Assembly: GCA_947034885.2 (NCBI GenBank)
Contig: OZ019759.1
Span: 4,528,501-4,592,500, forward strand
DNA length: 64,000 nucleotides
Source of the DNA: Thuidium tamariscinum
Lineage: Eukaryota; Streptophyta; Bryopsida; Hypnales; Thuidiaceae
Direction: 5' to 3'
Part shown: in pieces, positions 3,368-61,185 of the stretch
Layout of the letters: each line of letters opens with the position of its first letter
How positions within the stretch are numbered: position 1 is the first letter of the stretch
Notes under the pieces: model-generated
Databases searched by the model: none
Seen by the model: only the letters and a program-made list of their open reading frames with translations
What the model was told of the DNA's origin: nothing
Made by a program: the position numbers and the translations under genes

Positions 3368-4354
3368 GTGAGACCTTCCGGTGACTCTTGGTTTTCATGT
3401 GGATTACGAGACTATGGTCCTCAGCAATTGGTTGTCTTTAATGTGCATGGTACACTATTAGACTGTAGCATGTTGTCTTCACCGAACCCAAACCCTCGAA
3501 TAAGTACTACCAGTACAACTGCATTTAGGAGAATTGTTTTCCGGCCGTGGTTGAAGAAGTTTCTTTGCCGTTGTTTTCAGTCTTTTTATGTTGGTTTCTG
3601 GGATAGCGGCAGTGCCTCCCACCTAAACGACGTCTTACCGGTGGTCTTAGGGGGCCTGAAGGGAGTGCAGGCAATCCCATTGTTCTCATGGTCTGGTAAA
3701 CAGGGAGAGGCTACAAATGTGGATTTGGGGGAAGGGTGCCCTCCTCCATGTGATAAGCAGTTAGAGTTTGTGTATGCTTTGTGGCCTTGTTTTTGTGCAG
3801 CAAATACCCTAATTGTAGACAATAAACCGAGTAGGGTTCAGTGCAATCCAGAAGCTAATGTCATTATCAGTACTCCTTTTTACGTGAAGTAGATTTGCAC
3901 AGTGGCAGATGACAAGGAGTATTTGAAAAGATTCCTATGGCCGATGTTGGCGGCTTTCCAGTCATGCCCAGACGTGGCTACTTTTCGGTCAAAATTCCCT
4001 GAAGTTGTCAACGAATCAATGTCTGAAATGATACAAAGACGCCGCAGCGGATACTCATATGAATTTTTGGACATTCTGGAAGGTGAGGGGACTGGCATAC
4101 CATGTTATTGCACAAGTAACGGTGTCCCCTCACCTTCCTGTGCTCTTCATTTCTAATATTTTTTGTATTTGTATATAGGGCAAGGTGCAAAAGGTGAGGA
4201 CAAAGACAACATCGACGGCGGACAAAAAGGCTTCCGCTCCGTACACAAAGAAGTTACTCGGAGTAGTATACCGTGACCCACTCTTGCATCTCTTGATGTT
4301 GCTATACGAAATAGTGAAATATGCATGTGAAGTCAGAGGGCACTCAGGGCAGTG
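3368..4354 (+). pseudogene. FCP1/NIF-like HAD phosphatase domain, degenerate (locus A)
   Basis: The frame from 3368 shows the layout of an FCP1/SCP-type HAD domain. Motif I appears as VVFNVHGTLLD, followed by FRPWLKKFL, the second-strand region FYVGFWDSGSASH and the late motif NTLIVDNKPSR. Active family members have DxDxT in motif I; here it is N-V-H-G-T, so both catalytic aspartates are missing. A TAG at about 3890 interrupts the frame, which then continues as EYLKRFLWPML to a donor after 4082. A further exon may run 4179-4354 (basic, KVQKVRTKTT). Two relatives lie on the other strand at 37.2-38.3 and 56.9-57.5 kb, also with spoiled motif I. Fold assignment is fair; phosphatase activity is unlikely. 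Confidence 0.6.
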
Positions 4355-6540: not shown

Positions 6541-6782
6541 ATACAATCACTTAGATTTATAATTTAATTACCATGTTGAATGTGCATATTGTTTTATTTT
6601 TTAGAGAAAGGATTAGTTGAATTCATTAATAAAAATAAAAATGTTAATGATAATTTCATGAAAATTAAAATTTATATGACTTCTTAAATACATTTAGTGC
6701 AACAATATAAAACAATAATTAAGTAGGAATCATGACCATCTTAAAGAAGTTCAAAATGAATGTTCTAATGCCCTAATCCCAC

Positions 6783-7690
6783 TTGATAAATGTCCTAAAA
6801 ACAAATTCTATATTTTTAAATCACCTTTTTTTGTACAAATATAACAATGCAAACTGCATTCCAATTGGCCATAGCACTATCTACTATGAACCCCTTAAAA
6901 TTTGGCTTATGCACTCCAAATTTCTTTACTATAGTGTTCAAGGACCTTCAAAACTACACTTGGATCTTTGTATCTTTCGATTGCATGTCACAGACTACAA
7001 TGGTCATTTCTTTCTTGTACTAAAAGTTGTACATGTGGCAGGCCATGGTGGTCAATTGTTCACGTGCTTCTCATGGTCAAACATTATCTATGCATTCTGT
7101 AGATCACCTCCAAGTTGCATGCACCTCATGAGGTCGACTCTACTTCTAGGTCCTTCAATGAGCATTTTGAAGATGTAGACCTTCTCTTTGCTTTGGCCTA
7201 GGAAGATATTACAGTGTATGAACTCAAATTTGGATTCCCTCTTCATAGTCATAATGATGTCAATGAACCCTCTTTGGTTGTTTGAACATGAAGAAGAGAT
7301 GATATTTCATATACTACTATTTAGAAACTTAAAGCAATCTATGACCCCTTCTATTTCCTCTCCTTTCAAGATCTACCTCTCTCTCTTCCTGTGGTGAAAT
7401 GAGTGGTTTGTAAAATCTACACTAGCGGACAAGGCAATGGTGGAATTTGTGGTTGTAGAGGTTTTGGCAACCTCATTTGAAATGAATTTAGTAATTTCTT
7501 TTGTAGAGTTTTTATACATGCTTTTTTCTATTGGAGAACTATGATTTCCTAAAAGAATTACAGACCTAGTTAAATTAGTATTGTAACTACAACAATAGTA
7601 AATTCTAGCATCATAGGTGTCATTTTAGGAATCAATTCAAGAACCTTCTCCAATGTAATTTCAAGAATCTTATTCATGCTCTAATTCCTT
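6783..7690 (-). pseudogene. decayed copy of the Mutator-like transposase
   Basis: Read against the transposase at 18523-22527, this stretch is its reverse complement. The complement of 19840-20420 is recognisable at 6783-7400 and that of about 19580-19830 at about 7420-7690. For example, the antisense reading MNSNLDSLFIVIM parallels MNSNLDSFFIVIM in the better copy. Many substitutions and indels are present, so it is an old DNA-transposon fossil. It lies beside the 3' end of the ParB-methyltransferase gene, while the better transposase copy sits at the other end of that gene cluster. Confidence 0.75.
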
Positions 7691-8237: not shown

Positions 8238-11200
8238 ATCTAAATCGCTGTAGACTCTGTTGCAGAATCTGATCCTATAGATGACTCTGAGGACTCTCTA
8301 CCCTCAGATGCAGACACATCTACAAACTGCAAAACATTTAGAGCATAAGTATCTTTACGGCGTTTTGGTTTGGAACAACCAAACTCCGCAAAGGCACTTG
8401 CCAATTGCTCAACATAGATAGGGAGCTCAAAAGTCTTCTCTGGGCTGATGAGAAGACTTTGTTTTGGAATGATGACAGAAGTTGGCATCAATCCATGACC
8501 TCTGCAAAAAAATAAGACATGGTATTAGGCTTCTTGAACACAAAAGAGAATCAAACATGTGAAAAAAGAATTTAAATATTGCCAACTTACTTACTAGATT
8601 TCCCCTTGCGAACAAACTTGCGAGGCACCACTGGCATGTCCTCCAAATCCTGTGAAAGCTCCACCACCGGCGTTGACTGCACTGTTTCTACTACACGCTC
8701 GAGTGACTTCTTCATCGGCTTGAGGATAGCATCATAAATGGGTTTGTTGCCCTCTAAAGCCACAATGTGGCGTCCAGTGGCACGGCAAGCTGTAATGCAT
8801 GCACCTATTGCCAATGAAATAAAATGTATTAGTGCTTTGATTGAAGGGGAGAAATACAATTATAGTGTAAAACATTTGAATTAAACACTGACCTGTAGAT
8901 GCCGTGCAATCCAATATTAAATCTCCTTCAATGCTTGTAGCTTCGAGGAGGATGGTAAAGAACCTTGGATCTTTTTCGCGCCCACCCCGCCAAGGCCACT
9001 CCCCATTCATGGCCATGTCATATGGATGGGTGTAGTTCATGAGCATGTCATCCTCTGCAACATCAACACCTGCCTTTGCCATAATATTGGTTTTCTTGAA
9101 GGAAAATTTGGATGGTCCCTTGGAGCCAAGCTTCTTCACAAGCAGGGTGACTCCAAACTTCTGTGTCTGCACATTTAGGCCAAATGTACATTAGAACGCT
9201 TAAAATGTAGGGAAATATACAATTTTGATGAAAGACACTAGAAGTCAATTGAAATTACCGTCTTGGTCTTCTCTGCAGCTGAAGTAAGGTGCATGCGGTT
9301 CATCCCCATCCACTCCTTCTTCTGCACCAAGTCATACGCCTCACAAACTCCAGCAATGTCTTGCCTGGACTTCATACTGTATGAGTGAAATACTATGATG
9401 CATCCATCGTCTTGTAGATGCTCCATGGCAAAACTACAAGCTGATTGTAGTGCTTCCGCCTCTACATCTGCGTTCCACTCTGGCACATCGTTTGGTGAGG
9501 AAGAAAGCCCAGGCACGGGTAAGTTCTCAGGGCAATCAATGAAAATGACGTCCACCCCTACTCGCACGTTTGGCACACCTTCAAACATGCGAGTCTTCCC
9601 ATTTGACATCTGCAAATATGTAATACATCTCAGAATTAGTTAAAAAATAAAACAAGAATCAAATGACTTGAAATAAAACAATGAAGTTCAAAAATGACAA
9701 TAAACATTGGTACCTTCTCTAGAAATTGTACCACGTCCTTGTACAAAGTCAGTTTGTCTTCCTCCATGTCGTCTGCAAGGTCTTGAATGGAGAAGTTGAG
9801 GATTAAATCCTCACTCTTCACCGCATCATCTTCAGTGAGGACCATACCTTGTGTAACATGTGTGATGACTTCTTCGGTGAGTTGGGAGAGAGTGACCTTT
9901 CTCATCACTTTGGATTCCATCTGTGAACCTTGATCCACTGTAGAAGATGGCACCCCTTCTGCCCCTGCTTCCTCCTTCTTCTTACCTTTGCCTTTGCCCT
10001 TTTCTTCCTTGTCCTTGTCTTCCTTGTCCTTCTGTGCTTTCTTTGCTGCTCGCTCAGCCTCCTTTTTCTCCTTGTTTTCAAGGTGAAGTTGGACTCGAGC
10101 TGCTTTCTTTCTGTCAACTGCATCCCTCCTTGCAATGGCCCTCTTCCTTGCATTCTGATCAAGTCCAACAAACTCATCGACGTCACAGTCCACGACCCCT
10201 TTTCCATCCAAAGACCTCCTGAGCTCAATCTCTGATGGCGGAGTGAACTCGAGTGTACAATCAAGGTACCACCCTCCTGAAGTAAGATGCGCCGTAGTAT
10301 AAGTGCGAAGTTGGTGAGCACTAAACATGCAAGCTGAAGAACCACGATCAAGGAATGATGGCAGAAATGGAGGGAGGTCTAAGCGTGCGATTGCTCCTTT
10401 CCCTTCAAGCTCAAATTTAAAGTACCTGCAACACAAGGATAAACATTTTGAAGGGACATTTTCGATCATGCCAATATAACTAGGAGAATAACATTATATT
10501 TGAAAATTCCATTAATGGATAGGTCAACAATTTTCAGAATAATAGAAGCAAATAAAAGTTTAAAAAGTTGAATACACTTTCTTCAAGACAGGACATTATA
10601 ATTCATAACTGAAGTCCTCATCTTCTAGAATTCAATGATATCCGATTCAAAATGTAGACATGCTTGCATGTCAATTTAGCCTTAACAAATCAACCTCATA
10701 TAAAAAATTAATAATTTAGAAACACATAAAATGAATCACTTTAATTTCTAAGTCATGAAAGACACATAACTGAATACTATCCATAATTTGTATGAAAAAA
10801 TAGAATAGTACATACCGGAAAAGCACTCTACGAACTGCAGCAGCTGAACCTTCGTGCGCCATGAAGGAGTCACCCTTCTTAAAGTAATTTTGGCCCTTGA
10901 AATAATTCATAAAGCCATGCTCCCATATAATGACCCTCCACCTCTCAATGTACTCTACCAAGGACTCTGGTTGTGTTGGGAGCTTGTAATTGATCATGAT
11001 GTTATCTTGCTTGACAACCGAATCAAAGTATTCCAAAGCCGCATCTTCAATCTAAAAAACAAATTGCACAGCAAAATGCACGCTTCAATATTTCATTAAG
11101 TGAATATAAAGGCTAAAGTGCCATATTCAATAGAAATAATGAAAAGCTACAAACCAATGTACACAATCAATTGATTACTTACCCCTGCAAACCAAACGCA

Positions 11201-12750
11201 TTTGGCAAGAAATTGAGGAAGGAGAAGCTCGGAAACAGGTTTCGGTGGGAACTTCCGTGCTTCACGAGATGGAATAGAAGAATTCCACCAGCTCAAGATC
11301 TTGATCTTGTGCGCTGAAGTCATACTACACGTGGCCACAAGCTGTAGTTTCTCCAATGTCATCTCGGGCACTTCATTGGTGCTCCAATGCCTCTCCACCT
11401 ATATAAGAAATGTTCAGATTTTTAGTTCCAAATCCATTTATTAAGAGACCAACACATAAAAATGCATCACATGTAAACATTACTCACCTCCTCAAGAAAG
11501 CCAGGTCCATTGTAAGGGTTAGCCACTGCTAGCAATTTGCCCATCTTCCCCATCAAAACCTTGGTTTTCTCCCTAGCTCCTTCCCGCATGGCCTGGGCAG
11601 CCAGTTCTGCCTTCCTATCGCATTCTGCTGTAACATCATTATACTTTCTCACTGCAGAATCTGCAGCTTGAGAAATCTCTTGCTGCAAAATAAACCGATT
11701 TTGGAAATTAGTAAACCCCAGAGTTCAAACGTTTGTCAATTTGAACAATATATGATTTCTATAGGAAATAAATTCTTACCCTGAAAATGAAGGACGTGAA
11801 AACCTCCACGGGTATGCTGTACCACTTCCGAGAAACCTTGTTTTCAAGACACTTCTTCTTCTCTGAGGGCCTTAGAAGATCTGCAAACCTTTCAATTGGT
11901 AGAAGTCCATACTTCTGCACTTGGTACAAAGTATGTACCAAGTTAGTCTTGACATGAGAGTCCTCCATCGATCTGTAGGTCATCAATGACAATGAAATCA
12001 GTGAAAGTCTTTGAAATTTATATTAAAGAAAGATAAAAGAAAACTAAAAACAACTAAAATCTTGAAAACATTTGAATTGGAGAACTTACTTGTTGATATT
12101 ATGCATCACTTGCATAACAAGCTCCGTTCGCCCTTTAGTATCCAATAGAATGCTATCCACAACGTAGTGCCACTTCGGAATCAAAGTATAACACCTGTCT
12201 ATGAGATTCATCCAGGCAATTCTTCTGTGATTCCCATCGCAAATGAAGAACTTCAAGTTCTTCAGGGACTTGAGCTCAGGCCTGGATTCAAGGTGCCGCT
12301 CAAAAACCTCATTTTTTCTCTCCAAATGGGGTCCCATTCACTCATTTCAGCCTCAGTGAACTCTGAGCTGTATCCTTCCTCATTCGTAGTAGACACGTAG
12401 AAAGCAGCCGCCCCATCCTGATATCCCCCAGCAAATTCCTGCTCCAACTTGACAATATCAGAAGCTAGAGTAGGCCTTACCAAGGGCATGGCTACTAGCC
12501 TGCAAAGGGGAATGCAAAGCCGATAAAGCTCTTCGGGCTTCATGCAAAGTTGGGAGAGAATGTCCACTGAATCGCCCTTCTGAATACGCCTCAAGTCGTC
12601 CTCCAACATTTTCTTCTCCTCCTCATCGTAAATCATATCCATTTGAAGGTCCTCCTCTCCTCCTTCAATATGTGGTTGTCTTGTCTCATCTGTTTTGGGT
12701 GTCTCAAAGATGGTTTCCGCTGGAGTTTCTTTGACTGGTGAGACATCCAT
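8238..12750 (-). CDS. ParB-like domain + N4/N6 DNA methyltransferase-like fusion protein
   Basis: Ten exons on the complement: 12750-12090, 11972-11780, 11682-11488, 11398-11183, 11051-10816, 10425-9714, 9609-9259, 9166-8893, 8804-8591 and 8501-8238. All introns have GT..AG ends. Lengths sum to 3,315 nt (1,104 codons plus stop) if one base missing in a six-T run at about 12313-12318 is allowed for. The chosen ATG directly follows an acceptor, so a 5'UTR intron is likely. Residues about 78-180 look ParB-like: CIPLCRLVAMPLVRP, then FICDGNHRRIAW with the DGxHR signature. A coiled coil lies in exon 3 and a Lys/Glu-rich stretch near residues 600-660. The C-terminal third has the permuted beta-class methyltransferase order: FIDCPENLP (DPPY position), then LILDCTASTG (motif I, usually DPFxGSG), then GRHIVALEGNKPIYD. 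It ends in a Ser/Glu-rich tail. ParB-methyltransferase fusions are known in bacteria and phages. Both catalytic motifs are altered, so activity is doubtful. Confidence 0.75.
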
Positions 12751-12985: not shown

Positions 12986-15900
12986 CTACCCTATGATGTC
13001 AACATCATCATCCTCAGAGTCAGAACTGAGGATGATGACCTTGTAAGTATAAAATTTACCAGTGTGGTTTGATTCATATAACTCCTCAAACGGAGGACTA
13101 GAACTAGCATTGGAGAGCTCTATAGCAGAGGAATATTCTATTTCTGAGCTCTCTGAAGAAAACCAAGGACCAGGGCCACGGTTCCAACTCAATCTATCTC
13201 CCTCAAAATCATTGGCAGCTCGCTCGGCAGCATCCATGATATCTGAAAAACTCACCAGAGTTTGTTCTTCGTCACTAGAATCACTTGAGAGTGGTACGCC
13301 AGGTTGTGGCCACTTCTTTGGCTCCGACGGTCCACCAATGTCAAGAGCTGGAAAGGATTGCTCTAGGGGGGGTTGCTTCTCTGTAGATGAGGTCTTCAAA
13401 CGTTTACCTTTTCGTCCACCAGCCTGAAAAAAATAAAGAAATAAAGAGAAATCAATACTTGAAACAATTCATGACCAAATGAAATTTGGTCTTGGTGAAG
13501 AATGAGAAATCAAATTACCATGATTAAAAGGTTATCTAGTAATATATGAACAAGAATATCATACAAAGCCATCCAATCCATGTCAACAAAAACTTTCTTG
13601 AAATCTTCCATTGATGTCAAGGACTTAAGGACTTTGAGAAATACAACTCTTTCAGATCTTTTTGTCTCCCTTTTATTGTATTCCAACAATCATCTAGAAC
13701 ACTTTAAAAAATACTTATAATTAAAAAATAGTTTGATCCTTTTAATGAATGGAAATAAGGGGTACCATGAGGTATCATGGAAATGACCGTCGGATCCGAC
13801 GGTCATTTCCTTGATACCTTATAGTACCCCTTATTTTAATACCTTGAGAAGATTAATTTTCTTTTTGGTAAAAGTTTTCTTGTGAACAAGTTAATCACCA
13901 TCTTCACACAGAAACATAATCTTTCGGACTTATAATAATCTTTTTCAAATTTTAGAAACTATCTTCCATTCTTATGGGAATAGGCAAGATTCCAGAGGAT
14001 GACTAATAACAAATAAAAACAATAAATGAAACCCCTTAGCCAAATTTTATGAATTGTGACAAGGAGAATACTTAAAGGAATACAAATTCAAGATAATCAC
14101 AAGATCACTCAAGGAGGACTCACCTGCTCAGAGTTATTCTGTAAAACCTCGGATGAGATAGGAGCACCTTGAGGTACCTGATGGAATAAGAGAGAATAAC
14201 AAAAAATCAAAAACAAAATTAGCTGTCACCCAAAGGGAACCAAATTAGGGGTACCCTGACATGCTCAGGATCATAGCTTCGGATCCGACGGTATATTGGG
14301 CGTTCTGTCCTGGTACTCAGCTTTCTATCAATAAAACAAAAATTTCAAATAAAATTCCGCTTTTCTACAAACAAGTCCGAATACAAAACTGGATTTCTTA
14401 TACTTTCTAATCAGTATCAAGAGCTCAAGTTCCTCTCCCTGTAGATTTCAGGACTCACAAACTGAGTGTAAACGGTTTAGTGGACATTAAATTGAAGGTC
14501 AACCAGCGTCAAGAAGCTGTGAACTAAAAACCCAAAATTGAATCTTAAATCGCAAAACTAAACCATTTCGGCCTTGGACTCCCGATGAGAGAAATTTTTG
14601 GGTAGCATGAGAGACCACCAGAAACACCGTCGGATCCGACGGGATTAACTGGGGAATCTCCTGCTACCCTCTGTTTTCAAATTTTAAGGAATAAATCGAT
14701 GTTTCTTGAACCATGACCTGAATTCAAGACTCTATGTTCGAAATTCGGAGTTTGGAGCCGCATCTTCAAGGATTCAGCAGATCCATAAGAAGAATTCTAC
14801 CTAGGGATGGCAGTAGTCTTGCAAACGTCACATTCAACATGTGAATTACTTATCAAATCGGGAGTCTCAGTCATCTTCTGTGAGAAGCAGAATTGAAGAA
14901 ACAAAATCTCAAACATGCGAATCCAAGGGTACCACGACAGGATCCCGAAACTACTGTCGGATCCGAAGGAGATTTCTGACCATGGCCGCGGTACCTCCAG
15001 AATTCAGTATTCGGGACAACCGATTGAGAAATCTAACTCGAGGCTCTTGATCTTCGGGGCTGTCACATTGCATCCAGGTGGTACCTCGCGCCTACACAGG
15101 CCTTCACACGCGCACAAGCGTGTATTGTGACTGATCTTTCCACTGATCCTGGAGTATTGCCACTGATCCTGCGCGCAAGCGTTTGGATAATTTCACCACT
15201 GCGCCGTGACAAGCCTCCAAGACTTGCAATCGTGAACATCGAGGCAACGCCGCTGATAACCAATCGTGAAGGAAAAAAATTGAAGCCAAATCGTGGTCAC
15301 TCCAAACCATGGGTATCGCGACCCGAACTGGATGTTGCCGTCGGATCCGACGGAGACTGTCGATGAGGGTCGCGGTACTCAGAGAACAAGCATATCGGGA
15401 TTTAAAAAAAAAAAAGGGACGGAGCGAAGGTGCGGTGTCCGTTGAGGCGGGAGTGCAGGACTCTCCCCGTCGGGCGTGACTCCTCGACGTGACTCTTTCA
15501 GAATACCGCAGTGCCGCGCCGTTGGGGGGCTCGCAGTGCCGCAGTGCTCGCAGAGCTCACGCTCGCAGTGCCGCGTGCTCACAAAGCTTGCAGTGCTCGC
15601 GTGCTCACGTTGCTCGCACTGCCGCGCTGTTAGGGGGCAACATAGAGTCGCGACGGAGGCTGATGCGGGCGAGGAGATTGAGATACGCGTGACCCAAATC
15701 TCCAGGGACTTACCGCTTCAGGTGCTGGGCCTTTGCGTTTTCTCAAATTCGCCATGAGCTGTGATTCTACCACTACATTCAGAGGCATTGAGTGATTGTG
15801 TGATGACTTACCTCAAGTGCGCTGACGGATTGCGGCCTTCTTGGATCCCTCGCATCACCACAACTTGCCTCCCCCTGTTTGGCGCGGCTCCGCGTTGCGC

Positions 15901-18522: not shown

Positions 18523-21500
18523 TTGGATTGGTCTATTGCTAAAACTATGGCTTCTATACGTGTAGATGGTCACGAGGTTCCCTTAGTCTTCCCACTTGAT
18601 GAAAAAGGGTACGCTACTGTTTTCAACCACTACCTTCATGTGAGGTTCAAGTTCGTTGAGTCATCTGTCTATATTGAGGAAGAGCGAAAGTCTGAGGCAG
18701 GTGATCTGCTACAATCTATTCCTCTGGTGAAGTCACTATGTAAAGGAGGACATTGCTGGTCGTTGGGTTTTGGAAATTATAGAGTGTATGGTCTCCCTCT
18801 ACCGATGCATCAGTTGTCAACAGAAATAGGAAGTCGTCAGTCGGCCAACTCAACAGTGGACATGCCCTCTGCGGCTAAGGCAACTATACCAAGTCCTGCT
18901 CGTAGTCATCTCCCAATGTTTGCTACGAATGAAAATGATGTTCTTGTGAAGGTAGAGAAGTTGGATACTATTGTAGATTTATCTAGCGATTTGGAAGGAG
19001 AATTCCTACCCTCATCTCTTAACCCTAAACCCTCTATGATTATAACTGACTCAGGTGAAAAGGCCACCCCTCACTTTGACAGGAAAATGGAAGGTAGTTT
19101 TATTTCTCAGTCTTTGCTTTCTAGTCCTTTGCCACAAGCAAATACTGTGAGGTCCGTCAGTATAATGGATTGTCTACATAGACTTTCTACTCTTCATCGT
19201 TCTAGGAGTGAACTGTCTACAGTAGACCTGAATACCATGAAACATCATCGGGTAGCGTTTCTACCACCTGCATACAACGGGGACTCCATTTTTGAATTAC
19301 CACCTTGTCGATCCTCATCTTCTTCCTCGGCTGCCAAGAACCTGGAGGGAATGGATAAGCGTTATGACGGACATCCTTGGTGCAAGCTCGTGACAACAAA
19401 CATCCACAACGCAGACAATCTGAAGTTTCGTAAGTCATACTGCGCTGGTCATCTTGTTTGTGAGAATACTGAGTGTGAGTATTTGAAGAGGGCTTCTAGG
19501 AAGAATGAAACAGAGTGGACAGGGTCTACTATTTTTCCTTTTGTAGTAGGAAAAGGTCCTCCTAAAGATTGTAGGCTTATTTGCAAAGTTTGCAAAAATA
19601 TACCTACTTGCATTGGCATGTGTGACGCTAGGATGTACTACTGTTACAGTGATAATCCCGAAATGACTAGAGCCGCTATTCACTTTGGAAGTCATACTCA
19701 CCCGGTAGCTAAAGGCATGTATAGAGACTCCGCCAAGGAGATTAGCAAACTCATTGAAGAACAAGTGGCCAAAACTCCAACGGCAACAAACTCTGCTATT
19801 ACGTTGTCTGCTAGCAAGGACTTCTTGACAAATCATTTATTTCACTACGGAAAAGGAGAGAAGGAATTGCTTAAGGGAGAAGAGATGGAAGAGATCATGG
19901 ACCGCTTCCAAGTTTTAAGCAGTCCTAGTATACGGAATGTCATCTCTTCTTTCCGCACAAACAATCGAGGAGGTGTTATCGATAGCATTATGACTATGAA
20001 GAAAGAATCCAAATTCGAATTCATCCACGACAGCGTTTTTCCAGGCCAAGGCAAGGAGAAAGTGTATATATTCAAAATGCTTACCGAAGGACCTGGAAGT
20101 GGAGTCGACCTTGTGAAGCGCATGCAACCCGAAGGTGATCTTCACAATGCATGGATGATGTTTGACCACGTGAAGCGCGTGAAGGACTAGACCACGATGG
20201 CTTGCCACGTGTATGATGCACAGTACAAGAAAGTGATGACCATTGCAGTATGTGACATGCAGTCTAAAGATACGGAAGTTCAAGTACAATTCTGGAGGAG
20301 TTTGAATGCTGTCATGACTAATCATGGTGTGCTTGACACAAACTTTAAGGGCTTCATGGCAGACAGTGCAATGGCTAATTGGAATGCAGTACGTATTGTT
20401 TTTGGCAGTGGTTCTCCAAATGAGGTCATGCAAAATCGAGAGAGGACATGCTTGTTGCATTGGACTTCTTCTCTTATCAAGCACACTCAGAAACACATCA
20501 AGCAAGAATTCCAATAGCAACACAATATGTTGTGCAAGCAATACAAAGAATCCAAGACTATGGATGAAGCAGAGACACGCTATCTTGCAATCCGGTCATG
20601 GTGGTTGTCATCTGGAGCTGCAAGCGAAGAGTCTCTTCATCACTTAGAGCATTGGCTGGCATTCTGGCATTTTCGGTATTTACAATGGGGAGGCTTTATG
20701 ACAATGGTACGCAAAATAATGATTTGTTTGTAGTTTCTTCTCATATTTGCTATAAAATGTGGAAGGTATGTAATTAAGCTTACAAATAGAAGGACTAAGT
20801 CTTTGTATTCCAATATTTATTGTGTGAATATAAAAAACTAGAAATTTCCTATGAAATTCTTCTTGGTATCTGAAGTAGTGAAATGGGATTACTTTGAGGC
20901 CACCAATATGGTTCCGTCGGATCCGACGGAATCATATTGGTGGCCTCAGAATAATACCATTCTAGATATTTATCACTTTTAAAAAAGTCTGGACATCTGT
21001 CCGTTAGGATTTTGAATGTTCATTTATCTTGCAAACTGTCCTACATCCACATTTAGATTATTTGGAGGGGAACGATGCAATCTTTGATCTAAATTTTGAG
21101 GAATATTGTGTCTCTAACTCATATCATTCAATTTTCACGGATTGAGTTTGGAAGAGATGACAGATCTACCTTTCTGTAATTTATCTGAAACGATTCATAA
21201 CAAGTAGCTGCAAATGTCTGGAAAACGCGCAAACAATTTGTTTGATGCTACTTGTGATGATAGTATTCGCGCTTGGATGCAAATGACGAACTACCGTGCA
21301 TATCTCAAAGGACACGCATCTGGTTCAGGCCCATCCAAGGGGGAATTGAAGTTGAGAGCTGCAAGACGTAGCGGATGCCCTAAGAAAATAGCGGAAGCGT
21401 TGAATACATTGCCAGAAGCTCATGGTGTGGGAACTCGAGTACCACATTTAGAAGGAGAAGAAATATTTGGAAGCACTAAGCGAAAGTTGGATGTGCCTAT

Positions 21501-22527
21501 TGGTGATGATGGAGATTCGCATAGACCAGACAAAATGAACTTCTCCCAACCCCGTGTTCGAACAAGGTCAACTAGGATATTGGAAGAGCCATTGGAGGTC
21601 AATGCATCACAAAGTGAGGTAAATCGCTTTCAATTTGTGACTGTAGCATTTGAAAGTGATTGTGACACATCAAAGTGGCACATTGCTAGGATCAATCACA
21701 AATCAAATGCTAAATGCTCGGCTCAGCAACGAACATCCAACATCAAATGTACTTGTAGGATTTCAAAGGGGAAAAAGGGAACCCCTGCTCCCACGTATCG
21801 TGGTAGAAAAGAAGAATATGGCACTAAACGGGAGGTCGTGGTAGACTTCTGGTTTTGTTGGGATGATATTGAACGATGCGTCAAAGGTACCAAGCGGAAG
21901 TGGGTCATTGATTGGCCAGAGGTGCCGAAGGTTTGGCCTATTTTGAGTGGAACAAACCTCAATCGAGAAGAGACTTTGTTGTTGCAGCATGCGGGCTTCC
22001 ATCTCCAAGAGAAGCCGATATTGTCACCACGTAAGCTCTTTACCATGTCTAAGATTTTCACGCCTTTCCTTCTTGACCAACCATCTCCACCTAATGCGGA
22101 TGTACATCCAACAGTGAGAAACAACCGAACTATTAGGAGACTTGCAAATGCCCCAACTGTAGAGCAACGAAACAAATGGGAGAGTGCTGGGAATATTAGA
22201 GGACAAATTCTAGAAGTGACTCTTCTCCCTTTTCCAGGACTTGGTGCAATTGTAGTATTGGAAACTAGCATAGAATCAAAGAAAAATGTTTATCGAGTGA
22301 CAATGGGTATGTTCCCTACATGTACATGCCCAGACTTTGTGAACATGGTTGTATCTGCTGTTGGAGGGCGAGCACAGTACGTGAACTGCAAACACTTGTA
22401 CTATTTGTACAGGTATTTCTGCAAGATGGATATTCATGATGATAAATTCATTCATGCACCTAGTTATAGCTTCAATGAGTTGAAGGTACTCCTAGTTCGT
22501 GCAGGGATCATTATAGTCTCGAAATAG
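18523..22527 (+). pseudogene. Mutator-like (MULE-type) transposase with SWIM zinc finger
   Basis: Exon 1 is about 18523-20705 with donor GTACGC. Exon 2 is 21211-22527 after acceptor AAGTAG. The N-terminal part has a Cys/His module (CENTECEYL, CKVCKNIPTC, then HFGSHTHPVAKGMYRDS) like the FLYWCH/WRKY-GCM zinc fingers of MULE transposases. Next comes the probable catalytic core (TTMACHVYDAQYKK, GFMADSAMANW, ERTCLLHWT). The second exon ends with a SWIM finger, CTCPDF then CKHLYYLY (CxC..CxH). Two in-frame TAGs, at 20188-20190 and about 20515, fall where TGG and CAG codons would fit, so the gene is probably dead but young. A GGATCC hairpin lies in its intron. I found no convincing terminal inverted repeats. 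It diverges from the unknown gene over about 0.7 kb. Confidence 0.7.
20888..20956. repeat. 69-bp palindromic hairpin, GGATCC core, in the transposase intron
   Basis: GAGGCCACCAATATG pairs exactly with CATATTGGTGGCCTC around TTCCGTCGGATCCGACGGAA (centre 20919-20924). The core is that of the other copies but the arms are different, while still self-complementary. Confidence 0.85.
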
Positions 22528-23462: not shown

Positions 23463-23945
23463 AGCGTCGTTGAAACTTAATTCACTTCTTTTAGGAAGCC
23501 AAGCCCATTAGAGGGATTAGCCACTACTAGTAGTAGTTTGTCCATTTTTACCATCAAAGTATTAGTTCACTCTTTTGCTCTAGCCCTTATAGCATGAACG
23601 ACCTCTTTTAGGCTTTTGTTGCTTTTTGGTGTGGCATTAATATACTTTCTCATTGCAACATGTATTGCTTGAAAAATATCTTGGTGCATGATCACCACAT
23701 TTTTTCACTTAGTCATCAAAAAAGTTTCAAAAGTATGCCAGGCAAAAGGATTTGAATTTATTGAAAAACATTGTATTTTTCTTTAAATAAATGATGTAAA
23801 AACCTCCATAAGTATGTTGTACCATTTCTTGAAAATCATGTTTTCAAAACACCTTTTCTTCTTTTTGAGCCTAAGTAAGTAGATGAGTGAATCATTCACC
23901 GGCAGAAGTCTATATTTTTGCACTTGGTACAAAGTGTATGTCATA
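23463..23945 (-). pseudogene. decayed fragment of the ParB-methyltransferase gene (exons 2-3)
   Basis: Matches 11480-11690 and then 11776-11960 in the same order and orientation. Examples are GAAGCCAAGCCCATTAGAGG against GAAAGCCAGGTCCATTGTAA and the shared run GCACTTGGTACAAAGT near the end. The level of change suggests an old copy with several indels. It stops where the foldback array begins. Confidence 0.75.
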
Positions 23946-24357
23946 TCCTACTCAATTTTAGAGCTATCTCTTTAGTCAAGGTTTCAAAAAATTTGGAAAA
24001 CAAAAATTTGAAAAAATCAATGGTATCAAAACTAGAAGTATCTTTCAACACCCCATAAAGTTCAATAGGATTCAATAGACCTTTTGGGGTGCCCTTCTTT
24101 TAGGTACCTTGTTGAATCTCAAAACTATCTTTTTAGTCATGGTTTTAAAAAATTGAAAAAATAATTTTGAAAAATTCAACGTTATAAAAACTAGAATTAA
24201 TTCTAAGAGTCATATAAAATTTAGTTGGATCCAAAAGAAATTAAAGGATGCTTGGAACTACCCCTCTTTTAAATACCCTGTTGAATTTTAAAACTATCTT
24301 TTTGGTTATGGTTTAAAAAATTTAGGAAATTTTTCTTTTGAAAAATTCAAGGAGACC

Positions 24358-24440
24358 AAACTAGGGTTACTATGAGGCACCTCCAAAAGGGTCATCAGAT
24401 TCGGCGGACCTTTTGGGATGCTTCATGGTACCCCCAGTTT
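24358..24440. repeat. palindromic hairpin of the GGATCC family (left foldback arm)
   Basis: CTAGGGTTACTATGAGGCAC and CTTCATGGTACCCCCAGTTT are the outer arms. The centre reads CAGATTCGGCGGACC, a decayed core. Confidence 0.65.
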
Positions 24441-24611
24441 AAATACCCTGTTGAGTCTAAAATCAAGTTTTTGGTCATAGTCTAAAAAATTTTGAATTTT
24501 TTTTCTATATTAATAAATAACCAAGAGAATTGTATACTAAATAATTAAATAAAAATTTTCAAAATTTTAAACTATGACCAAAAACTTGATTTTGGACTTA
24601 GTAGGGTACCT

Positions 24612-24694
24612 AAACTGGGGGTACCATGAGGCACCCCAAAAGGTCCGTTGGATCCAACGGCCCTTTTGGAGGTGCCTCATAGTAACCCTAGTTT
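24612..24694. repeat. 83-bp palindromic hairpin, GGATCC core (right foldback arm)
   Basis: Outer arms ACTGGGGGTACCATGAGGC and GCCTCATAGTAACCCTAGT, with the centre GGTCCGTTGGATCCAACGG (GGATCC at 24650-24655). The core differs by a G-to-T and the matching C-to-A, so symmetry is kept. Confidence 0.8.
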
Positions 24695-25189
24695 GGGCTC
24701 CTTGAATCTTTCAAAAAAAATTCCTAAATTTTTTAAACCATGACCAAAAAGATAGTTTTAAAATTCAACAAGGTATCTAAAAGAAGGGTAGTTCTAAGCA
24801 TCCTCCAATTTATTTTGGATCCAACTAAACTTTATAGGACTCTTAGAATTAATTCTTGTTTTAATACCATTGACTTTCTCAAAAGTATTTTTTCAATTTT
24901 TTTGAAACCTTGACTAAAAGGATAGTTTTGAAATTCAACAGACAATTGAGTACCTAAAAGAGGGGCACCTCCAAGTACCCCATAAAGGTCTATTGAATCC
25001 AATTGAACTTTGTGGGATGTTGAAAGATACTTTTAATTTTGGTAGCTCTACATTTTTCAAAGGTATTTTTTTCAAAATATTTGAAACTATGACCAAAACC
25101 TTGATTTTGAATTCAATTAGGTATGTAAAAGAGGACAACACCAAGTACTTTAAAAGGTCCATTGGATCCTATGGACTGTATGGGGTGGT

Positions 25190-27780: not shown

Positions 27781-28231
27781 CTAGAGGATCACTTCACTTT
27801 TTTTCTAATTGAATAGTTGTTCACCGGTGATTAATTTATTTTCAATATTTACAAAGTTCAAAAAAAGAACTTATAGGATTTAGATTTGCTATGTCTTAAA
27901 TTTCATTGTAAGTTCAAAGAAAAGTATTTGTTGTAATCATGTCTATTTTTTCATGATTTCTAATTTTTGAAAGGTATTTATAATTGTAAGGATCTTTATG
28001 TTTAAGAGAGATTATCTCTTAAGTGCTAAGAAAATATTCTCAAAGGGTTCTTAATTAGTTGACACTAATCTCTACCTATATCCTTTTATATATGTAAATT
28101 CTTTTTTAAATACCCCTTATCATTGGTTAGAAATTTGAATTTCCATGCCTTTATTCTATCACTTTTGTCAATACATAGTATAGTTGTTTATAATATTAAA
28201 TTATTTTTGAATTGTTATTGTTGATCAAAAT

Positions 28232-28378
28232 GATCAACGTAGAGGCAAATGTCTCAAGATATCTTCTTTTGAAAATTCGGCTCCAATTGATCAGACATTT
28301 CCAACTCTAGAGATTGGGGGACTATTCGAGCAAAAAAAATGGTTAGACCCAAGCGTGCGTCTCTTTCCTGACTCTAGT
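28232..28378 (+). pseudogene. decayed last exon of the unknown gene, 5' part
   Basis: Aligns with the complement of about 13270-13420: AGACATTTCCAACTCTAGAG against AATCCTTTCCAGCTCTTGAC, then ATTGGGGGAC, and it ends at the serine codons GACTCTAGT. The exon resumes at 35224 after a CACTA MITE that inserted here. Confidence 0.7.
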
Positions 28379-28482
28379 CACTAGAAGAAAACTACACTAT
28401 TCATGCCAAAAACTGCGTTAAACTTGCCAAAACTGCATTTTACTTAACAAAGACTGCGTTGGGACTACATTGCGTTCAACGT

Positions 28483-35223: not shown

Positions 35224-35515
35224 AATGATGATGAAAAGAATTTGGTGAGTTTTTCCGACATTATAGATTCTACAAAGCGTGTAGCAAATGACTTTAGGAA
35301 GATAGATTTAGTTGGAACTGTGGTCTTTAACTATGGTTCTCATCTAAGAGCTTTGAAATGGAGTACACCTCTACTGAAGAAGTCTCAAATAGTAGCTCTA
35401 GTCTTCCATTTGAGGAGTTTTGTGAGTGTAACTATACTAGTAGGTTTTATACTTATCAAGTCATCATCCTTAGCTCAGGCTCTAATGAAGATGATGACGT
35501 TGATATCATAGAATA
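35224..35515 (+). pseudogene. decayed last exon of the unknown gene, 3' part
   Basis: Translates in part as NDDEKNLVSFSDIIDS, matching SDDEEQTLVSFSDIMDA of the better copy. In another frame it reads FYTYQVIILSSGSNEDDDVD, matching FYTYKVIILSSDSEDDDVD, and ends in TAG at the same place. At least one frameshift separates the two halves. Confidence 0.8.
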
Positions 35516-41268: not shown

Positions 41269-44200
41269 TGTTGCAGTCCGGAAATATCAGGTAAGTAAAG
41301 TAGGAAGATAGTATATAGAGTAAGCTCAATTTTTCAAAATTTTAGGGTTAGATATGGCGAAAAGAAGATAATTAGGGTCTTCTTCCCTTGGATCCGTTTG
41401 AACCGGATTGACCAAGGTGAATTTCCGGTCTATGAGCATAAGTTTCCGGATCCGGATTCCTCAATATCCGGAACGGAACTTCCCGGAAGACGGAACTTGG
41501 AGAGACGGATCCGGTATACCTAAAGATGGATCCGATATTGTCAAAAACGGATCCGGTATACCTAAAGACGGATCCGAGGTAGTTCCGGATGGTCGGCACC
41601 TACGGGTCTATGCCGCCGACCTACGGAAACTAGCGTAACGGCCGGGGAACGTCGCGCCGTTCCGAGGGGAACTGGGAACGCAGGGTACCGACTGGTATAT
41701 AAACCCTTCCTCTCCACTTCATTTTTCCTTTTCGATTTGGCAAATCGAGGTACGGCTTGTATGCAGGTTTTGGAGCGCGTATAGAGAGAGAAAGAGTGGT
41801 GAGCAGTAGAGATCGGTTCCGGGTTTAGTTCAGGGTCGGTGCCGACCGCACCGACAAGTTCCGACTCGGGCGGAGAGATGGCGAGTTCCTCCAATCCGAA
41901 GCGAGCGGTAGTGACGGCCAAGGCAATTTCACTAGTCATCCCTTCCGATCCGCAGCATCGGAAGGAGTTAGAAGATGATCTAGTCTTCCTAGGGTGTCAT
42001 GGGTTGATTCGGCGCCCTTGGAGTGTGAAGAGTGACGAGATAGTACAGGAAATCCTCTCGGGAGTTCCGAATCAGTACGAACTCACAGTGAGGGGTAGAC
42101 CGAGTGCTTAGACGCCGGATATCTGGGCGAATGTATACGGTTTTGATAAAACCGGATTAGGTCTAGCTCCCCGGACGGACAAGTTTGGTGTTAACAAGTT
42201 CCGGAATCCGCCCCACCCTAAGGACGGATACTCAGTTCCGGATTGCACCAACGACCGGCATAGACGGATGTTGGAATTCTTGATTCCCATCCTCTATCCG
42301 GAAAAGCCTACCCGTGTCACCGTGACAGTAGCAAACACCATCTTCGGGTGTTTTGAGAAGCAGATAGTCAACTGGGGTATAATCCTCCAGTGGGTAGTTA
42401 ACCGGCTAGCCGAGCATGTGGGACGGGAGAAGACCAACACTATCAGCGGCTATCTCTTCCACCTGTACCACCACAATGATGTGTTGAGTGGCCCGGAACT
42501 CCTCCGCTATGAGACAGGAGAGCAGATCCTCAAGTACGGCTTGACGGATGAGTTGGAGAAGGAGCCGGAGGACCCCGAGGACGAGCAGATGGACGAGGAC
42601 CCGAAAGAGCAGAAGCCGGTCAGCCAGCCGGAACGAAAGCCGGAACGGAAGAAGTCCACAACGCCGGATAAGAGAGGACACCCAGACCCGGATCCACCCG
42701 GATCAACCCTGGGGAAGAAGAAGCGGAACCACTTCGACACCATCATCCGTCACGCCATGATGGCGCACGCAGACAACAACCAATATGAGGCGATACTCGA
42801 GCAGATTGTCATGAAGCTGGGCGCGGTGAAGATCGAAGACATTCCGGAAATCCTCGACCGTCTTCCAACTCAAGAGGTGTTGCGGAAGAAAGACGAAGAG
42901 ATCCGGAAGTGGGAGGACGTGGCCCGGAACCAGACGGATCGGACCCAGCAGGCGGAAGATCTGGCCCGGATAGCTGAAGAGGGACGACGGAAGGCGGAAG
43001 AGGAGCGGAATGGGCTCCAGAGCACGGTAACGTACTTGGAGAGTGATCTCAGTGTCGCCAACGGGAAAGTCGTCAAGGCCACCTCCTTGGTTCGGAACCT
43101 GCAGGAGTTGGTGGCCCAACCGGCGGATACGGTGATCAGGGCGAAACTGTTTTCCGCTCGGCTGATGACGGAAGGGCACGTCACCGGATCGAAAGTCATC
43201 ACCATCTTGGTGGATTACCAAGCCAAGATGGAAGGGGTGCTGAAGGAGATGAGGGCCTTAATTGGGGCTCTCAATCCGGAGTTGGGGGAAGGACTGTCGA
43301 ACTTGCTCAACCAGCAGGTGTTTACGGACTTCAGCCCCGGTGCGCAAGGACGGATGTCGACGGATCGGAAACTACTCGGAAACTCGCTGGTCGTGAAGAA
43401 CCTCGGCGAGCTCGGATCGGATCCGAATGCAGCCGGACCGTCCAACACACCTACGGATCCGCAAGAGAAGAGGGCATCACCACGGCTCGACCTGGAGATC
43501 CGGATGAAGGCCCTAGCTAATCCGGCCAGGGAGAATCCGGAGAAGTTCGCCCACATGAACGAGCCAGACAGGGTTCCGGGTAAGGATCCGCGCAGCAAGA
43601 CAGTCATCTTGGATGACTCGGACAGGGAAGATAATCCGCCCCTCACCATCCGTGATGAAGTTAGGGGTCAGGGCGGATTTCAGGGAGTAGAGCATTCAGA
43701 AAACTCCGAGGCGGATTCGGAGGAGACTTCGACGGAAGACAGCGGAACGCCACCGGTTCCGATTCAGAAGAGGCAGACCCGATCCGCCACCAAGAAGGCT
43801 CCCCCTCCCAAGGCAGCAACGCGGAGAAGTTCAGTTCCGCCCGTGGGCACGACATCGAAGCGGGCACGTAAGTAGGATAGGGTTGAGTAGTTAGGTAGGA
43901 TTTTGAGATTTTGGGACGGAAGTTTCCTGGACGGATTTCCCGGATGTGGGCCCCGATCCGGAACTTTAGGGACAACTGGCCAGACCTTTCCGGATTTTCC
44001 GGTTGGGCTCCGATTGGTTGTTGCGGATTTTCTTTGGCCTTGTTGGCATTCCGTTTCTATTTTTAGGCTTTGACTTTCATTGTGTTTTGGGGCTTTTAAG
44101 GGGCAAGGAAGTTAGTTGGCCTGTCATTCCTTCCTAGTGCATATTCCATTGTATTTCATTCCCTTCTTTAATTTGAGCCGGCGGATGGACATTCTAGCTC

Positions 44201-48007: not shown

Positions 48008-49173
48008 ACTATAATGGGTGTAGGGATCATACCTTTGCGGCGAGCATGAACTTCGCTCCCGCGAAAACGTTGAGGACGTTCTCTTCAGGCACTACAAAAG
48101 CCTGAAGGATATCTAAATAGAACTCCATACGAAGTTCTGAAGGCTCGATTCTCCACTTCGCCTCAGTGTTCTTCCCCCACTCAGAGAGGTACACGTTCTC
48201 GACCAGACATCTGTATAGTGACTTCACCAAGCTTCAACATGACGAAGCAAACTCATCATTCTTAAAAAAAAATAGATGCGGCACATCAGAAGCTATGCCA
48301 CGGTTTGTCACGTTGTCGAGCAGCTCCGCCCGCACTGGTCTATACGTGCACAATATGTACTTGTAATCTTTCAGCTTCAGCGTTGCGAAGGCCCTTACGG
48401 CCTTAGGTCTTGCGTCCCCTGCAACACAAAAAACCAGGTGCTTGGGGTGGTGATCTTGGAATCTAGTTTTGCCGATAGAAAGTTCAGAACTCTGTCGATG
48501 GTGCTGGTCGTCTCCGTGGACTTCGACCTTGGAGCAATTCTCAAGTCCACTAGGGCAAACTTTACATACCGAGAATGGTACCGATAATTGGAGCTACTTA
48601 CCAACGCCTTCTTCAGGTAGTCCACCCCATGAATCTATACACCTCCAATCAGTGCTGGTAGTTGATACTTGAGCTTGATAAACTTGGTAAACATAAAAAG
48701 GACCTTGGGAAGTTGCTTCTCGAGATCCTTAACTCTCTTCAACCACGCATCGTTCCGTAGGCATCTCTTGAAGTACTCAGCTTTGGGGTGCGTGAGTAAA
48801 AAATCCCAGGAGGCCGAGGTAAAGTGATGCCTGGCCTTCTAGGCAGGTCTTTTCAACAACATCACCACCACTGTTGAAGAACCTCAGAGCTGGATTGATT
48901 GCCATCGAGTCCCAAAGTACAACTTTCTTGTGCTTCCTCTACTCAACCCACTCTTTATGGGTCATGTTGTCGGGGACAAGGACTTTCGTTGCAGACACAG
49001 ACACCTTTGGGTACAAAGCTATGCATCCTAGAGTTAATCCCAGGAGGTGCCGCGCGTTTACACCGAAATCGTTATCCATGAAATGCCCTAAGTATTTGAA
49101 AAACTCCCTCTTCAAGGACATGTTCTTTATTTTGAACCCCTTTGCATCTCTATAACACTGGCAGGTCAAGAGA

Positions 49174-58074: not shown

Positions 58075-59278
58075 CTACAAAGAAAGGAAAACCAAGTTGT
58101 CATTGGGCACAACCTATTGGTGGATCTTCAATGGGAAGGGAAGCGCTCCCGAGTTCCGCTACGGAAGCATCCACAGCCAGGTTGTGCCCAACCACAACAC
58201 TATCTGCCGCTGCAGAAGTTTCCTCTCGCTCGGCAATCTTGCGCGCGTCATGTATGACATTCAGCTCCTTGTCGAATGAGGTCTCCGGAAACTACTCATC
58301 GAGAGGGGGAGGGAGAGGAGTTGCGACCGGAGATTCCATCGGGAGGGGCGGCTTGACATTGATGGCCACTTGAGGACTCGCCACATTGCTATCGTTTGAT
58401 GTGGAGGGGCGCCCCGATATCTGTAGTTGCGGAGGTTCAGAGGCTGGAGAAATTGCTGCAAGCAATACAATGCCAGCCTTGTCTAACAAGAAGGCCAGAA
58501 TTTGGTTGCTCTTTTCTCGCTTTGCCTTATCTCTCTCTCTCTCCAACCTATTCGCCTCTACTTGCTCCCGTATGAACTGCGCATTTTGCTCTTGAATCTC
58601 CAAATTCGCTTTGTTCACCTTTGCTTGCTCCATGTGGTCCCTCTCTCGTTCTTTCCGTAGCTTCGCTACGGCGAGCTCTTGTTTCTTCTGCTGAAGCGCA
58701 TTCTGGGCGTTCTACGCATTGATCTGATCGATCTGAAACTTATACATCTGCTCCATCCGCTTCATAACCACTGCCATGTTGTCCTTCTTCCTCTTACATT
58801 CCGCCTGACTACCAGCAGTAGGAGTCTTCAACATCTGAGCAACTGGCGGTAGCATAGAAGACGCCACGGACCCGGGGACGTCCAATCCTAGGCCACTCGT
58901 TGGAGTCTGTATTTCGTCGAGCCCCAATTCCTCAACATCGTTGTCAATCTCATCTTCGTCATTGTCTGAGAACTCCTCAGAGTCATCGAAGACAGGAATC
59001 GCCCTTCGCTTCTGTTGCATGCCAGGCAAGTCTTGACTAGACCGTAGTTTTCTCTTCGACGATGAAGGCTTGGATTGCAAACTGGGGGCAACGTCTTGTG
59101 ACTTTTTTTGATAGCCACTTTCCAGAAAGTCTGCCTTGTCCAATGTCATGGCCTTCAAGCAGAGCTCTTCCCAGTAAGGCGACTCTTCTAAGAGCCCAGT
59201 AGCGTAAACGTGGACACAATTCATCTGCAGTAAAAAGAGATTAATCGTTAGATATCTCACGATTGACAGCAAGCAAGT

Positions 59279-59299
59279 TTTAGCTCGACTCGAGCTAAA
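59279..59299. repeat. TTTAGCTCGA-type palindrome, locus C (copy 4, perfect)
   Basis: TTTAGCTCGA, C, TCGAGCTAAA: a perfect 21-bp palindrome in the intron after the motif I exon, the same intron position as the locus B palindrome at 47989. Confidence 0.7.
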
Positions 59300-60492
59300 T
59301 GACATGACAATACACAAGTAAGCGAAGGCTACTACTGTACAAATAAGAAATAGACCCACCATGGCAGTGCAGGTAAACTTTCCGCCTGTGAATCCTAAGA
59401 AGACATACATCCCGGGGGTACAGAATTTGCGGATTAGCCATAAATAGAATTCCATGCGGAGTTCCAAATTGTTTAGCCGGTACTCAAGTTCACTGTACGC
59501 ACGCGCTTTCATGTACCTAGCCATGTCGGGACACAGGAACTCCTCAGGAATTCTGACCAGCACAAGATTCGTGGGGTTCTGCAAGAACATGAGAAGAACC
59601 TTCTTTGGTGTCCTTGCCGCTGCCGCATCACCTAGCCGGTCATTTTTCCCAACGTGGTAGTCGGCGTCTTCAGTGTTGTACTTGTCAAGAGCGCAAATCG
59701 TAAAATTTGCGCTTGTTCTTTCTCGTCTTCGCAAATGAAGAGCCACGATGAAATCTCTTCAAGCTTAGGACTCTTTTTGAACATTGAGCTCACGACTTCA
59801 ACAAAATACGGGTAGTCGACTGTTGATTTGTCCTTCTTCATCATCCCTGGAAGCCAACAAAAGTCAACTACTTCGAGCCTGATTTGCTTTGGCGTCTCCT
59901 CCAACCACATACCTCTGGGCCACTCCGATGTCACATTGTTTATTTCGTTGTACTTCCAGTAGTATCCATTCGCCGTTGGCTTGACAAATTTGGTCTTGTG
60001 CTCAAGAAACGTCTGGAAAAAAGAGAACGGTTCTGGCGACAACTAAGCACAAGTCTTGTTCTTCAACCTCACCATCTTCGCCTCCACAAAGTACCTCTCC
60101 CCAGGCCTGTTGAGGAGAACATCCATAGTGGCCCTAGAAAACATGCGTTTGTTTTTTAAGGCCTTTCAGTTTTCAACGATAATTTCGTTGTTTGCGTTCA
60201 TGAGGCCAAGCTTTGGCTTGATTTAGGGAAGCTCTTTTTTCACGAGATGCTTTCGCTTCCGTCTTTCCACCCATTCCTTTGTTGTGTAGCAACTATCCAA
60301 CACCGACGATATTGTCTTAGTCGTCACTTTAGGATAACAATGCTTTCTTTTGTCACCCGTCTGGTTTGAAATATGCTTATCAAGCTTTCCCAGCTCAGGA
60401 TAGCTTAGATTGCCAAGGAACTTGAAGAATTCACGGGTGAGCATGCAATTCTCTGGGTTCCAATCGGTCCTCGCATTAAACAGCTGGGTCAT

Positions 60493-61185
60493 TGCAAGAA
60501 ACGCCGGTCCTATTCTTCGTCACAATGGGAGTGACGTCATTCTTTTTTGCTATAACTTTTGAATCTAAAGATCTAACAATATGAAATAATTATTGGACCT
60601 CTCTAGCTTAATGGTTTTCACATCCCTTATTTTTCAGAAATTAAAAATAATAATTTTATATTTAAAAATCATTTTTCTTAATTTGTCACAAACAGAGGTT
60701 TAGGGGTTTTTACTACGTTCGGAGTCCCCAAATTTAATGATCTGAAGCTAAAATTTTTATGATGCATTTGCATAGAAGGAAAGCATACTCCTACCAAAGG
60801 GAATCTAAAAATACATTATTTTATGTCCTCCACATGCATGCAAACAGCACTTCCATTGCATGCAATTTCTGAACATTGATGATGGTACTAAGATAATTTT
60901 TTTGGTAAAATCTCATCACCATGAACTCTACCCAAATGGCCAATTTTTAGATTTGAGAAAAATAACTTTTCCTATTTCTTACAAATTAAAATCTAAATAT
61001 ACCCATTTACATGAGTTTTGGCACTTTTGTAATTCTCCTACTTAAAGAATTTTCCAAAGCTTTTCCTTCATAGGGAACCTTCTTCTTTAAGGTATATGCA
61101 TTTTTCATATTTTTCATGTTTTTTTAAAATTGTTTTTCTAATTAAATAGTACTCCCGAAAAAAAAAAGCGTTTAAATCCAAAACG
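60493..61185. mobile_element. diverged copy of the TIR element at 25315-26046
   Basis: Begins TGCAAGAAACGCCGGTCCTA, against TGCAAGAAACACTTGTACTA in the other copy, and keeps the same order of shared segments to GTACTCC near 61150. The right end is eroded. It interrupts the locus C gene between the KEEELKL exon and the LTREFFKFLG exon. Confidence 0.6.

Follow-up and report, generated by a model that had tools for sequence, protein, structure and literature searches.

A ten-exon gene of Thuidium tamariscinum whose C-terminus is likely, if distantly, related to N6_N4 DNA methyltransferases

How does a gene interrupted by nine introns in Thuidium tamariscinum come to resemble the DNA-modifying enzymes of bacteria and phages, and could its product still transfer methyl groups? 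The gene lies on the minus strand of a 64,000-nucleotide stretch of contig OZ019759.1 (GenBank assembly GCA_947034885.2, forward-strand positions 4,528,501 to 4,592,500), which we call the window and to which all positions below refer. A preliminary description had read its product as a ParB-like N-terminus joined to a beta-class amino-methyltransferase with altered catalytic motifs, and the gene itself as captured and domesticated, or else element-borne. Our comparisons suggest that the C-terminal part of this reading is likely correct, whereas the ParB half is not confirmed.

A reading frame was assembled from ten minus-strand exons between positions 12750 and 8240. All nine introns (88–390 bp) are bounded by GT–AG, no in-frame stop occurs in 1,103 codons (in 500 shuffles the mean was 63 and the minimum 38), and the GC content is 46.7% in exons versus 27.8% in introns; by these sequence criteria the exon chain proposed earlier holds. 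The peptides quoted with it were all located in the product (PLVRP at residue 89, DGNHR at 172, FIDCPE at 761, LILDCTASTG at 938, and VALEGN at 961). Since an acceptor-like sequence stands directly before the ATG at 12750, a further exon upstream is possible. Exon 1 switches frame near position 12321, between the two ParB-like boxes; this break, absent from the preliminary description, reflects either a flaw in the assembly or genuine damage to the gene.

The methyltransferase signal is concentrated in the motif-I half of the C-terminus, encoded by exons 8 and 9. When the C-terminal 251 residues were searched, PF01555 (N6_N4_Mtase) was matched with an expectation value (E) of 7.3e-5 and 23.2 bits, and methyltransferases accounted for all six PHROG families reported (best E = 7.3e-4) and for both reported NCBIfam models (CcrM, E = 0.0055); with the whole protein as query, four of the five PHROG families reported were methyltransferases (best E = 0.0026). 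The alignment to phrog_498 (E = 0.0013) runs from within exon 7 through exon 9. In tblastn searches against phages, this C-terminal piece showed weak local similarity to 183 records (best listed E = 3e-3), the best 20 of which comprise 15 annotated DNA methyltransferases or methylases and 5 DNA ligases. A scan of genome contigs with the full protein and with this piece, seeded by exact short peptides and so blind to distant relatives, found no relatives.

Two profiles of phage-type enzymes were also compared with the gene. One combined eight ParB–methyltransferase fusions with five non-fusion proteins: in hhalign this 13-protein phage methyltransferase profile matched the C-terminal piece with E = 2.2e-7 and a probability of 93.6%, and the piece scored 35.4 bits, a value reached by none of 2,000 shuffles (1,377 of them reported by the program; best 6.4). 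When all 1,579 reading-frame fragments of the window were scanned with it, exon 9 ranked first (E = 0.011) and exon 8 second (E = 0.016). After splicing, the alignment continues ungapped across the junction of exons 8 and 9. The other profile contained only the eight fusions, selected without regard to resemblance, and scored the piece at 9.2 bits, which again none of 2,000 shuffles reached (best 6.1). In an hhalign control none of 200 shuffles reached the score with either profile, the margin being narrow for the fusion-only profile (30.4 versus a best shuffle of 28.3).

Several results weigh against this assignment. The PF01555 score lies below the Pfam gathering cut-off of 26.7 bits, and searching with the whole protein lowers it to 14.3 bits (E = 0.04). 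Of the five non-fusion members of the 13-protein profile, four had been chosen from matches to the gene's own C-terminal piece, so that results obtained with it are partly circular. With the fusion-only profile, the hhalign probability drops to 19% (E = 0.0012), and a blind window scan (E up to 5) lists three fragments, with neither exon 8 nor exon 9 among them. No convincing match was obtained in the PDB. On balance, we consider a relation to N6_N4 DNA methyltransferases likely but distant. The methyltransferase-related C-terminus of the preliminary description is supported for exons 8 and 9, by PHROG matches, shuffle controls, and a PF01555 match below its cut-off.

The motif-I consensus of such enzymes is D-P-F-x-G-S-G. 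The corresponding segment here is DCTASTG (residues 941–947), which retains the aspartate and the last glycine of the DPFxGSG-like form of phage enzymes and otherwise departs from it, as had been noted; the motif-II glutamate is also kept (VALEGN). A motif IV of the form (D/N/S)PP(Y/F/W) is absent from the fragments of the gene, the nearest string being DCPE at residue 763 in exon 7. The earlier proposal that DPPY had become DCPE is a positional one: exon 7 alone scores −0.6 bits, a value reached by 498 of 5,000 shuffles, and the phrog_498 alignment begins downstream of DCPE. DCPE is placed as motif IV by its position, and the permuted order, with motif IV ahead of motif I, holds only if that placement is right, exon 7 alone being without profile support. 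Loss of the catalytic motif is accordingly a positional assignment that we regard as probable, and methyl transfer, judged from motifs alone, appears unlikely, since neither motif I nor the apparent motif IV follows the consensus. AlphaFold2 models from single sequences had a predicted local distance difference test score of 41 for exon 7 and 44 for the second half of exon 1; they were too poor and were not used.

The gene family is multicopy, as previously stated: a copy of exons 2 and 3 at 23.5 kb carries stops and has lost a donor site. Once stop positions and gapped columns were set aside, 125 codons were compared; the two encode the same residue at 64 of them, and their differences are most frequent at third positions. 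Nonsynonymous (dN) and synonymous (dS) divergence were 0.31 and 1.13 by NG86, and 0.38 and 0.73 by YN00, giving dN/dS ratios of 0.28 and 0.53, respectively, measured against a partner that is itself decayed. This codon comparison argues for a protein-coding history of the frame as well as for a multicopy family. A 1.1-kb foldback repeat adjoins the decayed copy.

The ParB-like N-terminus fared less well: neither profile nor sequence nor structure tests backed it. Of the two profile matches that the preliminary description had foreseen, only the sub-threshold one to PF01555 was obtained; Pfam and NCBIfam gave no ParB match, PF02195 (ParB_N) included, at E up to 10, PHROGs gave none either, and a phmmer search of the PDB returned nothing meaningful for this part. 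Our own ParB hidden Markov model, built on an alignment of 17 proteins, scored −1.8 bits; of 1,283 reported shuffles (2,000 run), 754 scored at least as high, and in the ParB hhalign comparison 165 of 200 did so. Position-specific scoring matrices ranked the fragment with DGNHR 50th of 1,579 for box II; for box I (PxxxxR) the rank was 271 of 1,579, and the best-scoring place in the fragment is not the PLVRP site. The N-terminal piece matched phages (four records) and plasmids (one record) only at E of at least 3. The frame break inside the ParB-like region hampers all such tests. What speaks for the assignment is a rare motif in a plausible position: among the 81,171 residues translated from the window (1,579 fragments), DGNHR is the sole DGx[HE]R, and within the gene it precedes the methyltransferase part. 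It also counts in favour that two of the six PHROG families matched by the C-terminus, phrog_498 and phrog_67, are matched by a clear ParB–methyltransferase fusion as well. We hold it about equally probable that the N-terminal half does and does not belong to the ParB superfamily. A two-box regular expression that matched 5 of 200,000 shuffles was not counted, having been written after the sequence was viewed.

Taken together, we favour, with modest confidence, the reading that this is a captured, spliced, multicopy amino-methyltransferase fold that now probably serves as a non-catalytic binder. The C-terminal ~250 residues would stem from a beta-class amino-methyltransferase (N6A/N4C type) of bacterial or phage origin, whose fold would have been captured by a eukaryote and would now reside in a nuclear, intron-bearing gene; we speak of capture because the family is known from bacteria and phages and the gene has introns here. 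With DCPE as the apparent motif IV, methyl transfer would probably have been lost, and the protein may bind DNA, or S-adenosylmethionine (SAM), through the retained fold; its N-terminal half may be ParB/Srx-like and its middle region specific to the lineage. The main rival is that the gene is recently dead, a pseudogene like the copy at 23.5 kb that makes no working protein and whose eroded motifs reflect decay. The break in exon 1 could mean just that, the window yielded only one further copy, itself decayed, and the surroundings are rich in repeats; against this, small indels are a frequent assembly error, and the uninterrupted codons and intact GT–AG introns mean that any death would have been recent. 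We consider this explanation somewhat unlikely.

Very unlikely, in our judgement, is an active enzyme with altered catalytic residues that methylates DNA or another substrate. The retained motif-I aspartate and last glycine and the motif-II glutamate would be in keeping with activity, and bacterial-type amino-methyltransferases do function in eukaryotes (PMC8885841, PMC8566409), but the consensus is lost at motif I and at the apparent motif IV, and replacement of SPPY by APPA abolished the activity of N4CMT of bdelloid rotifers (PMC8885841). It is also improbable that the gene is not the host's own but part of a transposon or integrated virus. Such an origin would suit a multicopy gene flanked by a transposase-like gene (18.5–22.5 kb) and the decayed partial copy of the latter (6.8–7.6 kb), and bracketed by one weak inverted pair. 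Nevertheless, the transposase-like gene does not keep the same orientation towards the two copies of the focal gene, and among the 25 inverted pairs listed of 37 there are no strong terminal inverted repeats: those bracketing the gene are the copies of the transposase-like gene and one pair (6554–6584 and 14829–14859; 31 nt, 77%) weak enough that chance may explain it. A transposon carrying the focal gene, sought through these pairs, was thus not found, and the element-borne option of the preliminary description gained no backing. Viral contigs, scanned with the full protein and the N-terminal piece from exact short peptide seeds, by which distant relatives are missed, yielded no relatives.

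A second gene family in the window, with two diverged copies, has a conserved ELRMEFYL...F.G.KF segment that resembles methyltransferase motif I, and may carry a similar, weaker methyltransferase-like tail. Its 48-kb fragment ranked top in the window scan with the fusion-only profile, but at E = 0.44, and its 58-kb piece, selected by eye, scored 8.3 bits, reached by 1 of 5,000 shuffles. With a two-sequence profile of this family in hhalign, none of 200 column shuffles reached the score with either methyltransferase profile. Neither fragment was listed in the window scan with the 13-protein profile, and the 58-kb piece had no methyltransferase match in Pfam or PHROGs. A bolder account, which we offer as a conjecture more probably wrong than right by a wide measure, is that a eukaryote captured a phage-type ParB–methyltransferase fusion, which gained nine introns and a large new middle region and, its catalytic activity gone, turned into a multicopy family of proteins binding DNA or chromatin; the second family would then make the recycling of dead amino-methyltransferases recurrent here. 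A spliced multicopy family with the fold but without the catalytic motifs would represent enzymes converted to binding proteins, and would caution against taking a methyltransferase-like gene as proof of genomic N6-methyladenine (6mA) or N4-methylcytosine (4mC).

The exons and the other features of the window are listed in Table 1. The transposase-like gene, whose name is a reader's label, includes a SWIM-like segment that its decayed inverted partial copy lacks; in Pfam its SWIM match reached no better than E = 0.25, and no transposase domain was reported. The dN/dS ratio of the two copies is about 0.10 (NG86) or 0.16 (YN00), with dS near or past saturation. A repeated gene upstream of the focal gene has three copies, partial or whole, of which two contain stops, and its C-terminal KVIILSSDSEDDD presumably resembles a SUMO-interacting motif. 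A single protein uniting this gene with the focal gene was considered from reading phases by eye and dropped. Palindromic repeats on CCGTCGGATCCGACGG occur eight times (≤2 mismatches) versus 0.01 expected. Between 28485 and 63585 a long repeat recurs in several diverged copies, spaced about 8–13 kb apart, with open frames that are gag-like by eye; searched in Pfam at E up to 1, the longest of those listed gave no match. An open frame resembling NIF/CTD phosphatases matched Pfam with E = 1.3e-7. ARAGORN detected no tRNA, and Rfam gave nothing at gathering scores.

Table 1 Positions of the exons of the focal gene and of other features in the window
Feature	Position	Strand	Remarks
Exon 1	12090–12750	-	N-terminus, PLVRP and DGNHRRIAW motifs; frame break
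Exon 2	11780–11972	-	Homologous to decayed copy
Exon 3	11488–11682	-	Homologous to decayed copy
Exon 4	11183–11398	-	No Pfam match, no known domain
Exon 5	10816–11051	-	No Pfam match, no known domain
Exon 6	9714–10425	-	Unknown middle region and Lys/Glu-rich linker; first part without Pfam match
Exon 7	9259–9609	-	FIDCPE (putative motif IV) and DDGCIIVF; phrog_498 match covers later part
Exon 8	8893–9166	-	HPYD...REKD and start of motif I (LILDCTASTG); profile matches
Exon 9	8591–8804	-	Remainder of motif I/II region (ACITACRATGRHIVALEGN); profile matches
Exon 10	8240–8501	-	Ser/Glu-rich tail; stop TAG at 8242–8240
Decayed copy of exons 2 and 3	23480–23968	-	Stops; donor site lost
Foldback repeat	23971–25097		1.1 kb
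Second gene family	58715–60912	-	Diverged copy
Second gene family	48036–49172	-	Diverged copy
Transposase-like gene	18523–22527	+	SWIM-like segment
Partial copy of transposase-like gene	6819–7612	-	Decayed, inverted
Repeated upstream gene	12992–13432	-	
Repeated upstream gene	35224–35513	+	
Repeated upstream gene	28226–28465	+	
CCGTCGGATCCGACGG palindromic repeats	13787, 14276, 14627, 14954, 15338, 20914, 24645, 27223		One inside transposase-like gene
Long-repeat copies	28485–63585		Several, diverged
Longest listed long-repeat frame	42268–43875		
NIF/CTD-phosphatase-like open frame	3368–3892	+	

No description of a ten-exon, motif-eroded member of this kind was found among the listed titles and abstract openings of open-licence papers. 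Among known proteins, the focal gene is like the PF01555 family in the motif-I/II region (E = 7e-5) and differs in being spliced, in its length of about 1,100 residues, in its DCTASTG motif I, and in having no DPPY-like motif. With phage ParB–methyltransferase fusions (L008, UOF77827.1), the focal protein shares a DGxHR motif N-terminal of the methyltransferase part and C-terminal matches to phrog_498 and phrog_67, families that a clear fusion matches over its residues 3–452 and from residue 84, respectively. However, the phage fusion fits clear ParB_N and methyltransferase matches into 463 residues, whereas the focal protein has no ParB match and about 560 residues between DGNHR and the methyltransferase part. 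PMC5512222 describes bacterial and phage ParB-methylases; one of them, Bce_0392, has the domain pair proposed here and a reported ParB nicking activity, unlike the focal protein, whose ParB half is only putative. Eukaryotic capture of bacterial amino-methyltransferases is so far known from a few active cases, N4CMT and MpDN4MT1. N4CMT of bdelloid rotifers is likewise a captured bacterial-type enzyme, but one that keeps SPPY, is active, and bears a chromodomain (PMC8885841). MpDN4MT1a/b of Marchantia are likewise amino-type DNA methyltransferases in a eukaryotic genome, and are reported to make 4mC (PMC8566409).

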